This document shows, piece by piece, positions 14,974 through 21,475 of a stretch of 36,648 nucleotides of DNA. The translations under genes were made by a program, and so were the position numbers. The stretch is from Acidimicrobiia bacterium (GTDB lineage Bacteria > Actinomycetota > Acidimicrobiia > Spongiisociales > JAHEDJ01), in the NCBI GenBank assembly GCA_029210695.1, contig JARGFH010000038.1, forward strand, positions 1-36,648, read 5' to 3'. The notes beneath the pieces were generated by a model. It saw only the letters and a list, made by a program, of their open reading frames with translations. It was not told where the DNA came from and did no database searches. Numbering within the stretch: position 1 is the stretch's first letter; each line of letters begins with the position of its first letter.

Positions 14974-16179
14974 ATGGATCGATGGCGACCGAGGACCAGC
15001 CAGGTGCGCGGAGGACACGAGCGCACTGCATTCGGCGAGACGGCCGAGGGCATTTTTATGACGTCCGGCTACGTGTACGAGACCGCTGAGGAAGCGGCAG
15101 CCGTTTTTCGCGGCGATGCCGACGGATACATCTATACCCGCTACGGCAACCCCACCGTCGCCATCTTTGAAGAACGTCTCCGACTCCTGGACGGGGCCGA
15201 AGCATGCAGGGCGACGGCGAGCGGGATGGCCGCCGTCTTTGCCGCCCTCGCTTGCGATCTCAACACAGGTGACCGCGTTGTGGCGTCCCGCGCTCTCTTC
15301 GGTTCCACCGTCGCAGTTCTCGGCCCGTTGCTCGGGCGGTGGGGTATCGATTCCGTTTTCATCGACGGCCGGGACCTCGACGCCTGGGACGAGGCACTGG
15401 CCGTGCCCCCCAAGGTGGTGTTCTTGGAGACGCCCTCCAATCCGATGCTCGAACTCGTGGATATCGCGGCGGTGGCAGAACGTTCCCATGCAGTCGGTGC
15501 CCGGGTAATCGTCGACAACGTGTTCGCGACTCCCGTTCTGCAACGCCCTATCGAATTGGGTGCGGATGTCGTCGTTTACTCGACAACGAAGCACCTCGAC
15601 GGTCAGGGTCGAACCCTGGGCGGGGCGGTTCTCGGCCCATCGGATTTCATCGACGGTCCGCTCAAGGAGTTCCAGCGCCACACCGGACCCTCGATGAGTC
15701 CGTTCAACGCCTGGGTCGTTGCCAAGAGCCTCGAGACGCTCGATCTGCGTGTCAGGGAGCAGTCGCGCAACGCGGAAACCCTGGCCGGGTACCTGAGCGA
15801 GATGCCGGGAGTCGCCCGGGTGCTCTATCCAACCGCCGACTCGCACCCTCAGGCCGAGCTGGCGAGCAGGCAAATGGAAGCGGGGGGATCCATGGTCTCC
15901 GTTGAGATTGCGGGTGGTCGGGAGGCGGCGTTCCAGTTCATGAACCGGCTCCATCTGTTCGATATCTCGAACAATCTGGGCGATGCCAAGAGCCTTGTGA
16001 CTCACCCGGCGACCACTACTCACTCGAAGCTCACACCTGAGCAGCGAACGGCGATGGGGATCACCGACTCCCTGGTCCGCCTGTCGGTGGGCCTCGAGGA
16101 TGTGCGCGATCTGCAAGACGATCTCGGTATGGCACTGACCGGCCAAATCGGTCACCCAAGTACCTCGCTCGGCGGGTAG
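14974..16179 (+). CDS. metZ: O-succinylhomoserine sulfhydrylase MetZ
   Basis: A 401-residue PLP enzyme of the Cys/Met metabolism family. The N-terminal QVRGGHERTAFGETAEGIF and SGYVYETAEEAAAVFRGDA are typical of MetZ, which makes homocysteine directly from O-succinylhomoserine (or a related ester) and sulfide. The PLP-binding lysine is Lys206 in YSTTKHLDGQGRTLGG, the MetZ form of the motif, and the tail NLGDAKSLVTHPATTTHSK is conserved. Length is normal. The product, homocysteine, is the substrate of MetH encoded 1.3 kb downstream on the other strand. The start has no Shine-Dalgarno; a TANNNT-like box (14960-14965) lies nine bases ahead, so a near-leaderless message is possible. Confidence 0.95.
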   Translation: MDRWRPRTSQVRGGHERTAFGETAEGIFMTSGYVYETAEEAAAVFRGDADGYIYTRYGNPTVAIFEERLRLLDGAEACRATASGMAAVFAALACDLNTGDRVVASRALFGSTVAVLGPLLGRWGIDSVFIDGRDLDAWDEALAVPPKVVFLETPSNPMLELVDIAAVAERSHAVGARVIVDNVFATPVLQRPIELGADVVVYSTTKHLDGQGRTLGGAVLGPSDFIDGPLKEFQRHTGPSMSPFNAWVVAKSLETLDLRVREQSRNAETLAGYLSEMPGVARVLYPTADSHPQAELASRQMEAGGSMVSVEIAGGREAAFQFMNRLHLFDISNNLGDAKSLVTHPATTTHSKLTPEQRTAMGITDSLVRLSVGLEDVRDLQDDLGMALTGQIGHPSTSLGG

Positions 16180-16296
16180 CCTGAAATCGAGGTGACGTTT
16201 TCTCACACACCTCTGTTGTCCGGCTCTCCGGGTTCCGCGTCTACGCACCAATCTGTGTTGCCCCGGCGCGCCCCCGGACCAACCCAAGGGAGGCTC

Positions 16297-17406
16297 ATGC
16301 ATCTCGATCGCCTCGCTCGTTTCGAGAGCGCCGACTATCCGGTGCTCTCCGTTTATGTGAATCGAGACGCCCTCAACCCGGCGGTGCGTCCCCGAATCGG
16401 CGACCTCTTGAAGCCGTTTCGCGAGTTCGGCGACCTCGACCACGATGCTCAGATGTCGCTGCGAGCCGATCTCGAGACGGTAATGAGTATGTGTGATCGG
16501 ATCGACGTCGACCGGGCACCGGCCACTGCCTTGTTCGCATGTCAGGGTGGCGGACTCCTCGAGTACCTCCCTCTTCCGGCCCCGGTGTGGGACGTTGCAA
16601 TGGTCTCGGATCGACCGTATCTGCGTCCGCTCAGGAGCGTCCGCGCGAGCGAGTTGGTGGCGGTGGCAGTGGTCGATCGCAAACATGCCCGGCTTTACAG
16701 CTGGGATGGCGCGGGAGTCCGACTCCTTGAGCTCGTGGAAGAGCTGGAGGAACACAAGGGCAATTTCGGCGGGTTCTCGGGATACGATGAGCGCCGGGCC
16801 AGGAGTCATGCTGAGACACTCGAACGCCGGCACTTCCGGCAGGTGGCCGACCGGCTCTTCGAACACCATCGGGCAACTCCGTTCGGCAAGGTCATAGTCG
16901 GTGGCCACGAGGAAACCATCACCAGGTTCGGATCATCCCTTCACCCGTACCTGCGCGATCGATTGATCGGCTCATTCGTCATCGATCCGCACACCATGAC
17001 GGATAGCGACGTCGCCAAGCGAGTTGATGGTTTGCTCGAGACGGCAGTGCGCGAGGAACAAGAAGAGCTGGCCACCAGGGTGGCCGAATCGGCCGAGGAG
17101 GGGGGCAGAGCTGCGCTTGGGCTCGCCAATGTGCTCGAGGCGGTGAACGCGGGCGCCGTCGACCATCTCGTCGTCGCCGGCCGCTTCACCAAAGACGGTG
17201 TGGTGTGCACTACTTGCGGAAGACTCGATCGCCTTGGAGAAGCGTGCGTCGGATGCGGTTTGCTCGTTTCGCCAACTGATGACGTGGTCGGTGCGGCCAT
17301 GGAGCAGGTGCTCCGGATGGGCGGTCGTGTTGATCAGATTACCGTTCCGAGCTTGCTCGATCAGCATGGAGTGGGAGCCCTCCTGCGGTTCGCAATACAC
17401 GGGTGA
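16297..17406 (+). CDS. Bacterial eRF1-like protein (baeRF / Vms1-like)
   Basis: The 369-residue protein resembles the bacterial archaeo-eukaryotic release factor-like families (baeRF; family-10 type seems closest). The N-terminal part has LSVYVNRD and a central strand VAVAVVDRKHARLYSW. A glycine-rich loop GNFGGFSGYDERRA (residues 155-168) precedes a long basic helix, in the place where eRF1 and Vms1 carry the GGQ or equivalent loop. A C-terminal eRF1-domain-3/L7Ae-like part holds a zinc-ribbon (Cys304, Cys307, Cys317, Cys320). Relatives are proposed or shown to act on peptidyl-tRNA in ribosome rescue. The ATG at 16297 follows AAGGGAGG. It is 117 bases after metZ in the same direction. Function here is inferred. 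Confidence 0.8.
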   Translation: MHLDRLARFESADYPVLSVYVNRDALNPAVRPRIGDLLKPFREFGDLDHDAQMSLRADLETVMSMCDRIDVDRAPATALFACQGGGLLEYLPLPAPVWDVAMVSDRPYLRPLRSVRASELVAVAVVDRKHARLYSWDGAGVRLLELVEELEEHKGNFGGFSGYDERRARSHAETLERRHFRQVADRLFEHHRATPFGKVIVGGHEETITRFGSSLHPYLRDRLIGSFVIDPHTMTDSDVAKRVDGLLETAVREEQEELATRVAESAEEGGRAALGLANVLEAVNAGAVDHLVVAGRFTKDGVVCTTCGRLDRLGEACVGCGLLVSPTDDVVGAAMEQVLRMGGRVDQITVPSLLDQHGVGALLRFAIHG

Positions 17407-17489: not shown

Positions 17490-20400
17490 CTAGCGAGCGA
17501 TGAAGTACTTTGCCTGCGGGTGATGGCAGATGATGGCCGAGGTCGTCTGTTCGGGTTGGTATTGCCATCCGGTTTCTTCACCGACCGATACACCGATTCG
17601 GTCGGCGCCGAGGAGGTCGGCGACAGTCTCATTGTCCTCGAGTTCCGGACAGGCCGGATAGCCCCACGAGTAGCGACCGCCGCGATACTTCTGACGAAAC
17701 AGTCCGGCCAGTGACGGCCCGTCCTGGTCGGCGAAGCCCCATTCCGTGCGGATGCGGTGATGCCAGTATTCGGCTAGAGCTTCGGCCATTTCCACCGCCA
17801 GACCGTGCAGATAGAGGTAGTCCTCGTAGTGGTGGCCTGCGAACAGCTCGGCCGCCCGTTCCGACGCTTGCTCGCCGACTGTGACGATGTGAAAGGCGGC
17901 GTAGTCGGCTCCGGTACCGATCGGTCGATGGAAGTCGGCAATACACAAGAACGGACTGCTTGCCTGGCGTGGGAATGTGAACCTCTTGACCTCGCGACTT
18001 CGCTCTTCGTCGGACCACACGACCAGGTCGTTGCCGTCGGCATTGACCGGGAAGTAGCCGTAGACGACCTGCGGGACCAGCAATCCGTCGCGCTTCGCCC
18101 GATCGAACTGGTCGCGCAGCACCGGCCGGATCCGGTCCTTGAAATCGCCGTCCGGTTCTCCGGGTTCGGGGCGAAAGTGCCACTGATTGCGAAACAGCGC
18201 CGTCTCGTTGAGGTACGAAGCAACTTCGTCGAGGGGAATTCCTTTCACCACCCGGGAACCGGTGAAGGGCGGATCAAAAACGTGGTTGTCGCCGGCGACC
18301 TCGGGCGACCGGCTCGGGATCGCTGCTAGCGGTGCTTCCTTGGTCCGGCGCCGGGGCAACGGCCGGCCACCCGCTACGCGACCGAAGTCGGGGTCTGTCA
18401 GGTGGGTCTCGGCGGCGATGTCGTCCATCACTGCCAGCCCGGCGAAGGCGTCCTTCCCGTAGAACAGCGGACCCGGGTAGTGCTCACGCAGGTCACGTTC
18501 GACGTACGTCCGGGTCAGCGCGGCCCCGCCGAGAATGACGGGCAGGTGGGCCAACCCCCGGTCGGACAGTTCGATCAGGTTGTCACGCATGACCAGGGTG
18601 GACTTCACCAGCAGCCCGCTCATGCCGATGGCGTCTGCGTTCACCTCCAGCGCCTTCTCGATCATCTCGGTGATGCCGACCTTGATGCCGAGGTTGTGCA
18701 CCCGGTATCCGTTATTCGTGAGGATGATGTCGACGAGGTTCTTCCCGATATCGTGAACGTCACCCTTTACCGTCGCCAAAACGATCGACCCCCTGCCGGC
18801 ACCATCGGCCTTTTCCATGTGAGGTTCCAGATAGCCGACGGCTGCCTTCATCGTCTCTGCCGACTGGAGTACGAACGGCAACTGCATATCACCGGCGGCG
18901 AACAAGTCACCCACCCTTCTCATCCCCGCCAGGAGGATGTCGTTGATGATGGTGATGGCGGACCGACCGAGGAGGGCCTCTTTGAGGTCATTGGTGAGGC
19001 CATCGCGATCGCCCTCGACGATCCGGTGCTCGAGTCTCTGTTCAACCGACCTGCCGCCGCGATCCTCTCGTTCAACAGCCGTTGCCGTCGCGCCTGCGAA
19101 GAGTTCGAGGATTCGTTCGAGCGGGTCGTAGCCGTCGGATCGGCGGTCGTAGATGAGGTCGAGCGCCGCCTGCCGCTGGTCGTCCGGAATCCGGTGGAGG
19201 GGTATGACTCTGGCGGCGTGGAGGATGGCTCCGTCGAGACCCGCTTCGAGGGCTTCGTTGAGAAACACGGAGTTCAGTACATGCCGGGCCGCCGGCTTCA
19301 GCCCGAATGACACATTTGAGATACCGAGGCTGGTGAAGGTTCCGGGGAGTTCTTCTTTGATGCTCCGGATGGCATCGAGCGTGGCCATGGCATCCCGGCG
19401 CAGATCCTCGCCGCCGGTGGTCAGTGGAAACGTGAGCGGATCGAAGATGAGATCGCCGGGTTCGAGCCCGTGTCGTTCGATAGCCAGATCGTGGATGCGG
19501 TGAGCGATCCTCATCTTCCACTCCAGATCCCGGGCCTGTCCTTCCTCATCGATGAGGAGGCAAACCACCGCGGCGCCGTATTCGCGCGCCAGAGACATGA
19601 CCCGGTCGAATCGGGAACCAGGGCCGTCGCCGTCCTCCAGATTGGCGGAGTTGAGCACGGCCCGGCCACCGATCCATCGCAGGCCGGCCTCCATGACCTC
19701 CGGCTCGGTGGAATCCAGCACGAGCGGGACGCTGATCTGGGTCGAGAAACGGGAGGCCAGTTCGTCCATGTCGGCGACTCCATCCCGTGCGACGTAGTCG
19801 ACGCAGAGGTCTACGAGATGTGCACCCTCTTTGACCTGGTCCTTGCCGGTCTGGACGCAGCCGTCCCAGTCCTCTGCCAGGAGGGTCTCGCGGAATCGCT
19901 TGGACCCGTTGGCATTGGTCCGTTCGCCGATGATGAGAAACGATGTGTCCTGCCGGAAGGGCGTGAACGAGTAGGTCGAGGCGGCGCCGGGTTCATGGCG
20001 GGCCGTACGGGCGACCGGCTGCAGGTCGGCTACCGCGTCAACGACTGCCCGGAGATGCTCCGGAGTAGTGCCACAGCATCCACCGACGACGGACACTCCA
20101 AACTCGGAGACGAACCTCGTGTGATACTCGGCGAGTTCGGCGGGCGAGAGGTTGTAGCACATCTCTCCGTCCCGGACTTCAGGGAGGCCGGCGTTGGGGA
20201 TGACCGCAATCGGCATCCGCGCCCGCTCGGAGAGGTAGCGAATGTGCTCCGTCATTTCCGTAGGCCCGGTCGCGCAGTTGAGGCCGAAGACGTCGGGGCC
20301 CAGCGGGTCGATAGCTGCCAGGGCGGCCCCAATCTCGGTTCCGGGCAGCATGCGGCCGGTCGCCTCGATCGTGACCTGTGCCTGGATTGGAAGCTGAATC

Positions 20401-20945
20401 CCCGCGCTGTGCATCGCGAGGCGTACTCCGTTGATGGCTGCCTTCAGCCCGAGCAGGTCGAACTGAGTTTCGATGATGAAGAGGTCGGCCCCCCCTTCGA
20501 GCAAGCCGAGGGCTTGTTGTTCGTAGGCAGAGCGGAGATCGACGTAGCGGATCTGACCGAGGGTGGGGAACTTCGTGCCGGGGCCGATCGAGCCGGCAAC
20601 CCAGCGGCGCCGGTGCCGGGTCGAGAAGTCGTCGGCCACTTGCCTGGCCAGGCGGGCAGCTACGACGTTGATCTCATGGACGCGATCCTCGATGCCGTAT
20701 TCGGCCAACGGGACGGCAAAGGCGCCAAATGTGTTGGTCTCGATTACATCCACACCGACGTCGAGGTAGGAGGCGTGAATCTGTTGGACGAGATCGGGGC
20801 GAGTCAGGTTGAGGAGTTCGTTGCAGCCGTCGAGGTCGGGTCCACCGAAGTCGTCTTCAGTCAGCCCGGCCAGTTGGAGGGAGGTGCCCATCGCGCCGTC
20901 GTAGATGACGACTCTGGATCTCGTGGCTTCGACGTAGCTTCTCAC
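17490..20945 (-). CDS. metH: Cobalamin-dependent methionine synthase MetH
   Basis: A 1151-residue enzyme that moves a methyl group from 5-methyl-tetrahydrofolate to homocysteine through cobalamin. In order: homocysteine domain starting at VVIYDGAMGTS with zinc-ligand cysteines in GGCCGTTPEH (~286); pterin domain at GERTNANGSKRFRE (~337); cobalamin cap and B12 domain with the axial-ligand motif DVHDIGKN (~730); and the AdoMet activation domain with RYSWGYPACPE (~1091). All modules are complete. The GTG at 20945 is chosen because GGAGGCGAGGAAC precedes it and the S-box leader covers 20957-21080; starts further up (20996, 21065) would lie inside the riboswitch. The gene is likely controlled by SAM through that leader. 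Confidence 0.95.
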   Translation of the reverse strand: MRSYVEATRSRVVIYDGAMGTSLQLAGLTEDDFGGPDLDGCNELLNLTRPDLVQQIHASYLDVGVDVIETNTFGAFAVPLAEYGIEDRVHEINVVAARLARQVADDFSTRHRRRWVAGSIGPGTKFPTLGQIRYVDLRSAYEQQALGLLEGGADLFIIETQFDLLGLKAAINGVRLAMHSAGIQLPIQAQVTIEATGRMLPGTEIGAALAAIDPLGPDVFGLNCATGPTEMTEHIRYLSERARMPIAVIPNAGLPEVRDGEMCYNLSPAELAEYHTRFVSEFGVSVVGGCCGTTPEHLRAVVDAVADLQPVARTARHEPGAASTYSFTPFRQDTSFLIIGERTNANGSKRFRETLLAEDWDGCVQTGKDQVKEGAHLVDLCVDYVARDGVADMDELASRFSTQISVPLVLDSTEPEVMEAGLRWIGGRAVLNSANLEDGDGPGSRFDRVMSLAREYGAAVVCLLIDEEGQARDLEWKMRIAHRIHDLAIERHGLEPGDLIFDPLTFPLTTGGEDLRRDAMATLDAIRSIKEELPGTFTSLGISNVSFGLKPAARHVLNSVFLNEALEAGLDGAILHAARVIPLHRIPDDQRQAALDLIYDRRSDGYDPLERILELFAGATATAVEREDRGGRSVEQRLEHRIVEGDRDGLTNDLKEALLGRSAITIINDILLAGMRRVGDLFAAGDMQLPFVLQSAETMKAAVGYLEPHMEKADGAGRGSIVLATVKGDVHDIGKNLVDIILTNNGYRVHNLGIKVGITEMIEKALEVNADAIGMSGLLVKSTLVMRDNLIELSDRGLAHLPVILGGAALTRTYVERDLREHYPGPLFYGKDAFAGLAVMDDIAAETHLTDPDFGRVAGGRPLPRRRTKEAPLAAIPSRSPEVAGDNHVFDPPFTGSRVVKGIPLDEVASYLNETALFRNQWHFRPEPGEPDGDFKDRIRPVLRDQFDRAKRDGLLVPQVVYGYFPVNADGNDLVVWSDEERSREVKRFTFPRQASSPFLCIADFHRPIGTGADYAAFHIVTVGEQASERAAELFAGHHYEDYLYLHGLAVEMAEALAEYWHHRIRTEWGFADQDGPSLAGLFRQKYRGGRYSWGYPACPELEDNETVADLLGADRIGVSVGEETGWQYQPEQTTSAIICHHPQAKYFIAR

Positions 20946-20956
20946 GGCGTTCCTCG

Positions 20957-21080
20957 CCTCCGGTTGTTCCAACGAGGAGCGTCTCCGCAACCCCATCGTG
21001 CAGGCGTTGGCACCGTGTCCCCGTTGGGCCGGTTGCCGCGGTCTCACAGGGCCTGATCCCTCCACCGCTCTTGATGAGTT
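20957..21080 (-). promoter_or_regulatory. SAM-clan (S-box type) riboswitch of metH
   Basis: Read on the minus strand, the metH leader carries the S-box core: ATCAAGAGCGGTGGAGGGAT (from ~21075), then GGCCC, GCGGCAACC and GGTGCCAACGCC. Pairings seen are P1 CTCATC with GATGGG, P2 GCGGT with ACCGC, and P3 ACCG with CGGT. The P4 arm of SAM-I seems absent. The P3-loop CCAACG (21027-21022) can pair with CGTTGG (20974-20969) beyond P1, as in SAM-IV or SAM-I/IV forms. A downstream stem CTCC/GGAG includes the metH Shine-Dalgarno, suggesting translational shut-off when SAM is bound. Family match is strong; subclass and mechanism are inferred. Confidence 0.9.
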
Positions 21081-21086
21081 CGGTGA

Positions 21087-21092
21087 ATCCTA
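21087..21092 (-). promoter_or_regulatory. Putative -10 box of the metH leader
   Basis: On the minus strand TAGGAT fits TANNNT and predicts transcription start at about 21080, exactly where the 5' strand of riboswitch stem P1 begins. A -35 match is weak. The agreement with the RNA boundary supports it. Confidence 0.5.
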
Positions 21093-21235
21093 ACGCCATT
21101 CCGGCTCCACCCGTCCGTTGAGGTGGGCAGATCGAAGATACCCCGCCCCTCGGCGCCCTCTCCTTTTGTGATGCACCTTCAAAGCGATGGGTTGCGCCAC
21201 TACGCTGTTGCGGAAGATAGGCGGGGAGACTGGCG

Positions 21236-21475
21236 ATGGCGATCGAAACACACGATAAGAAGCGTCACGGTGAGGTCGATGAGAAGAGGTTTGGCCGTGC
21301 GATTGCCACGAGCATCGTGGTCGGAACACCCCTGTCGATCATCTTCATCGTGCTGTCCATGTGGATCTTCACGGATTCAGACCTGACGAGGGCGTTCTCC
21401 GTTGGAATCTGGCCGGGGATCCTGACCGGAGTGTTCGGCGGTGGATTCGTAGGCGTCATCATCGGTTCGGACTAA
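21236..21475 (+). CDS. Small two-helix membrane protein
   Basis: A 79-residue protein with a charged N-terminus (residues 1-20, rich in Lys, Glu, Asp) and two hydrophobic helices (about 22-46 and 52-76) joined by a short loop; the second is Gly-rich (GILTGVFGGGFVGVIIG). It should sit in the cytoplasmic membrane. GGGGAG lies eight bases before the ATG. It starts divergently from the metH leader and ends 10 bases before the methyltransferase gene, with which it may be cotranscribed. No family is recognised; function unknown. Confidence 0.75.
   Translation: MAIETHDKKRHGEVDEKRFGRAIATSIVVGTPLSIIFIVLSMWIFTDSDLTRAFSVGIWPGILTGVFGGGFVGVIIGSD

Follow-up and report, generated by a model that had tools for sequence, protein, structure and literature searches.

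The analysed stretch of DNA (the window, 36,648 nucleotides) carries on its reverse strand the metH gene (17490-20945), which encodes a cobalamin-dependent methionine synthase (TIGR02082, 1262 bits against a cut-off of 1011) with the Pfam domains S-methyl_trans, Pterin_bind, B12-binding and Met_synt_B12. An O-succinylhomoserine sulfhydrylase gene lies nearby on the forward strand (14974-16179; TIGR01325, 548.6 bits); it has no SAM element of its own and is separated from metH by a gene of the baeRF family (16192-17406). The metH leader was compared across six sequences, namely the window, four other genomes of the same genus and one from another family (the five besides the window including G001, G002, G003, G004 and G047), a small set with five members from one genus and little covariation. 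Just upstream of the aptamer helix P1, TAGGAT (21087-21092, reverse strand) is a likely -10 promoter hexamer, with all five leaders of the genus carrying TAGGATT at this place; a sigma-70 consensus scan gave no match.

The metH start codon, GTG (20943-20945), is located five bases past GAGGA, and each of the six leaders has GTG, TTG or ATG at the corresponding position; the aligned MetH N-termini begin at these codons after AGGA. In five of the six leaders, the metH frame, read back from GTG 20945, runs into a stop codon within the aptamer or shortly past it. Longer starts within the riboswitch, such as GTG at 21065, were rejected because of in-frame stops in relatives. The start at GTG 20945, as fixed in the original prediction, is well supported by these sequence comparisons.

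The Rfam model for SAM-I (SAM, RF00162) matches the metH leader at 21080-20990 of the reverse strand with 71.5 bits (gathering cut-off 44.4, E 5e-15 over the window), and this is the sole above-cut-off Rfam match within the window. The core blocks of the SAM clan, which had been recognized in the original prediction, follow each other in order as ATCAAGAG (21075-21068), GGTGGAGGGA (21066-21057), GGCAACC (21037-21031) and GGTGCCAAC. All SAM-contacting bases listed in PMC6890682 (AUC, GA, CAAC, UGC and A) are found in the aptamer. The other two covariance models named in that prediction remained below their thresholds, with 33.5 bits for SAM-I/IV (RF01725, 21082-20950, cut-off 41.1) and 20.2 bits for SAM-IV (RF00634, cut-off 38).

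The architecture of the aptamer (20990-21080) agrees with the SAM-I assignment in all helices except P4. P1 is formed by CTCATC (21073-21078) and GATGGG (20992-20997) and is kept in all six leaders with one broken pair in G002. The 5′ side of P2 (GCGGTGGAGGGA, 21057-21068) contains the SAM-I kink-turn internal loop as aligned by the model, and P2a retains five of five pairs with the 3′ strand ACCGC (21038-21042) in five of the six leaders. The P2 loop provides CAGG (21052-21055) for the pseudoknot PK-1 with CCTG (21004-21001), which is complete (4/4) in all six leaders, and the P3 hairpin GGCAACC...GGTGCC (21009-21037) has all six P3a pairs in each of them. The SAM-I-like character of P2 claimed earlier is supported.

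The absence of P4, also proposed in the original prediction, was upheld, since the SAM model skips this region (18 model positions against one residue). Its place between P3 and P1 is taken by G64, the PK-1 strand CCTG, a two-base linker (CA) and C85 (20998-21005). SAM elements were also retrieved from the order and class of the window as the best-scoring matches listed rather than as a census; after manual correction of duplicates and of one misparsed row, about 127 of the 147 distinct parseable elements among them are P4-less. In 126 of these 127, CCTG is preceded by G and the P1 3′ strand by C, whereas the same positions in P4-bearing elements are mostly U and A (U64-A85). These base identities (SAM-I numbering) indicate that a pair is retained at 64/85 and that P4 is replaced by a mostly two-base linker. 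Within the window's order, the P4-less form with G64-C85 is the usual one, and P4-less SAM-I elements also occur in other lineages of Actinomycetota and in Streptosporangiales, Streptomyces and named Acidimicrobiia.

The missing helix, together with the weakening of some window helices by G-U pairs, could be taken as a sign that the leader is a decayed, non-functional relic of a SAM-I element. However, loss of P4 is the rule in the order, and the core, PK-1, P3a and the ligand-pocket bases are intact in the leaders of the genus, which makes decay extremely improbable. With its two-base linker in place of P4, the leader RNA is named a P4-less variant rather than a typical SAM-I. Its computed aptamer class makes it a P4-less subtype of the SAM-I riboswitch, which presumably binds SAM. 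A literature search whose coverage did not include the main SAM-clan papers found no description of P4-less SAM-I. It is conceivable, though less likely than not, that these RNAs make up a distinct and recurrently evolved SAM-clan subtype in which P4 has given way to a 64-85 pair (G-C or U-A) and a linker of two bases, and that this subtype is a structural intermediate between SAM-I and SAM-IV, which lacks P4. As a SAM-I aptamer can dispense with P4 across a whole bacterial order, the role of this helix and the origin of SAM-IV become testable on natural RNAs. A second SAM-I of the same genome (L001), which precedes a gene for O-acetylhomoserine sulfhydrylase, does contain P4 and offers a ready internal comparison with the metH leader.

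In the original prediction, the leader was regarded as a hybrid class combining the SAM-I-like P2 with a SAM-IV-like outer pseudoknot (PK-2) and a CTCC/GGAG stem masking the Shine-Dalgarno sequence. In favour of this, P4 is absent, as in SAM-IV (PMC6890682), SAM-I/IV gives its sub-threshold match over 21082-20950, and CGTTGG (20974-20969) in the window could form six perfect pairs with CCAACG of the P3 loop (21027-21022). However, the six pairs are complete in the window only, with five kept in G001, the nearest relative, and one or two in the other four leaders; in G001 the downstream strand is identical to that of the window and the P3 loop is changed (CCCATAGGGGG versus CCCAACGGGG). A six-base-pair run with the window P3 loop was also obtained in 10.8% of shuffles of the downstream sequence. 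Among 119 P4-less elements, no excess of loop-to-3′ complementarity was found (runs of at least six in 15 elements, 15.2 expected by permutation); the SAM-IV positive control itself reached only weak significance in this test (p 0.048), since permutation has little power when the letters of the pseudoknot are so strongly conserved. Of all P4-less elements, the metH leader L078 has the longest pairing between loop and 3′ strand, a run of ten bases (CGCTGGTGAG/CTCACCAGCG).

By definition, SAM-IV RNAs have PK-1, PK-2 and P5 and lack P4, whereas SAM-I/IV RNAs have neither the P2 internal loop nor PK-1 (PMC2864571, PMC6890682). Genuine SAM-IV RNAs of other Actinomycetota score 58-115 bits with the SAM-IV model, compared to 20.2 bits for the metH leader. 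The window RNA shares with SAM-IV the ligand core, the lack of P4 and a small hairpin 3′ of P1, but its P2 has the kink-turn of SAM-I, it has no conserved PK-2, and its small hairpin is the tip of an antisequestor (described below). With SAM-I/IV it has in common the ligand core and a weak match, but it possesses both the P2 internal loop and PK-1 and again no conserved PK-2. We reject PK-2 with high confidence, since it is unconserved, frequent by chance and accompanied by low scores of the SAM-IV and SAM-I/IV models, and the hybrid class is very unlikely. The downstream bases assigned to PK-2 belong to a conserved antisequestor/sequestor pair, illustrating that a pseudoknot seen in a single sequence, however tempting, can be a switching strand.

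Downstream of the aptamer, two mutually exclusive helices can be drawn. The antisequestor would form between GATGGGG (20997-20991), a segment that includes the P1 3′ strand, and CCTCGTT (20977-20971), enclosing the inner hairpin GCG-GAGA-CGC (20979-20988), which is indicated by the leader alignment and by folding. The sequestor would join TCCTCG (20978-20973) to CGAGGA (20956-20951), within which lies the Shine-Dalgarno GAGGA (20955-20951). The strand TCCTCGTT (20971-20978) is common to both helices, as antisequestor 3′ strand and anti-Shine-Dalgarno. Owing to these shared strands, P1 cannot coexist with the antisequestor, nor the antisequestor with the sequestor.

Both helices are conserved, with 91.7% (antisequestor) and 90.5% (sequestor) of the cells paired over the six leaders compared to 43-62% in controls with slid 3′ partners. 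Each of the six leaders retains most of the pairs; in G002 both helices are interrupted, and a double change from G-C to A-U in its sequestor also preserves the antisequestor pair. Apart from this one double change, the substitutions are mostly exchanges among G-U, A-U and G-C, and shuffling the columns of the 3′ letters yields scores as high as those observed. When the intervening sequence was dinucleotide-shuffled, two overlapping helices of this size appeared together in 0.7% of cases. In contrast, the CTCC/GGAG stem of the original prediction exists in the window but is complete (4/4) only there and in the nearest relative, with 3, 2, 1 and 0 of four pairs in the other leaders. The conserved Shine-Dalgarno is GAGGA and not the GGAG located farther upstream, and this stem was rejected as the mask because the more distant leaders no longer have it.

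Folding of the window leader with ViennaRNA gave the antisequestor in the free state and the sequestor when P1, P2a and P3a were enforced, with the predicted unpaired probability of the Shine-Dalgarno bases falling from 0.25-0.59 to 0.04-0.10. G001 and G047 showed a similar decrease upon aptamer enforcement. For G004 and G003, the predicted fold favours the sequestor whether or not P1 is formed; thermodynamics by itself thus shows no switching there, and co-transcriptional kinetics would have to matter.

With SAM bound, P1 (CTCATC/GATGGG) would be held, leaving the anti-Shine-Dalgarno TCCTCG free to pair with CGAGGA and hide GAGGA (OFF). At low SAM, the P1 3′ strand GATGGGG would instead pair with CCTCGTT, with GCG/CGC inside, and the resulting antisequestor hairpin would leave GAGGA accessible to the ribosome (ON). 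The anatomy expected of such an OFF switch, in which P1, the antisequestor and a Shine-Dalgarno-hiding hairpin compete, is present in the conserved helices and the predicted folds, which support the earlier proposal of ribosome-site masking. The conserved competing helices, the aptamer class and the missing P4 are established by computation, and metH translation is very probably shut off when SAM is plentiful, the direction and the translational level of the switch being read from this anatomy.

Transcription attenuation dominates among the riboswitches of Firmicutes (PMC2258182), and the SAM-I aptamer could likewise act through transcription termination or Rho. However, no intrinsic terminator was found in 20850-21300, and a competing helix covers the well-placed Shine-Dalgarno in all six leaders, so this mode of action appears quite unlikely. 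In all likelihood, the metH leader is a P4-less SAM-I riboswitch working as a translational OFF switch.

This mechanism is already known and the novelty of the window riboswitch is modest, the P4-less form being a variant. The window RNA shares with SAM-I (S-box) riboswitches the core, kink-turn P2, PK-1, P3, P1 and the SAM-pocket bases, as well as the position before a methionine-synthesis gene, and differs from them in the two-base linker closed by G64-C85 in place of P4. Its predicted sequestor/antisequestor OFF logic is known for riboswitches (PMC2258182). In Xanthomonas campestris, a SAM-I riboswitch controls a met operon mainly at translation through pairing of Shine-Dalgarno and anti-Shine-Dalgarno (PMC7270179). 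The same type of pairing is predicted in the window, but the expression platforms differ and the window has no evidence of tRNA sensing.

Other P4-less SAM-I elements have different 3′ regions. In the order but outside the window's genus (for example, L012, L048 and L111), P1 has a 5′ extension whose sequence covaries with that of a strand approximately 36-46 bases 3′ of P1, with the pairs ACGCGCTC/GAGCGCGT (31 elements), GAAACGCT/AGCGTTTC (7 elements), CTCGAAGCGCTC/GAGCGCTTCGAG (L048), TTCGGTC/GACCGAA, TGCGCTC/GAGCGCA and others. The mean complementary run of this extension in P4-less elements of the order was 6.47 compared to 5.73 (sd 0.09) after permutation, and the pairing represents an order-wide 3′ domain past the Rfam SAM match, which the window's genus lacks.

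Several of the P4-less SAM-I elements from the other lineages carry the Shine-Dalgarno directly within the P1 3′ strand. In L152, L153, L163, L182, L186, L192, L204 and L340, this strand runs into GATGAGGAG, GATGAGAAGGAG or GATGAGGAAGG, so that the Shine-Dalgarno abuts or forms part of P1; the gene that follows often has a GNAT acetyltransferase-like start, as judged by eye. Another set of P4-less, SAM-I-like elements (L333, L334, L336, L338, L339, L341 and L345) has CGCAACC for GGCAACC and GGTGCGA for GGTGCCA, two substitutions that compensate each other at the base of P3, and most of them have CCCGGACGGATGAG at the P1 3′ strand.
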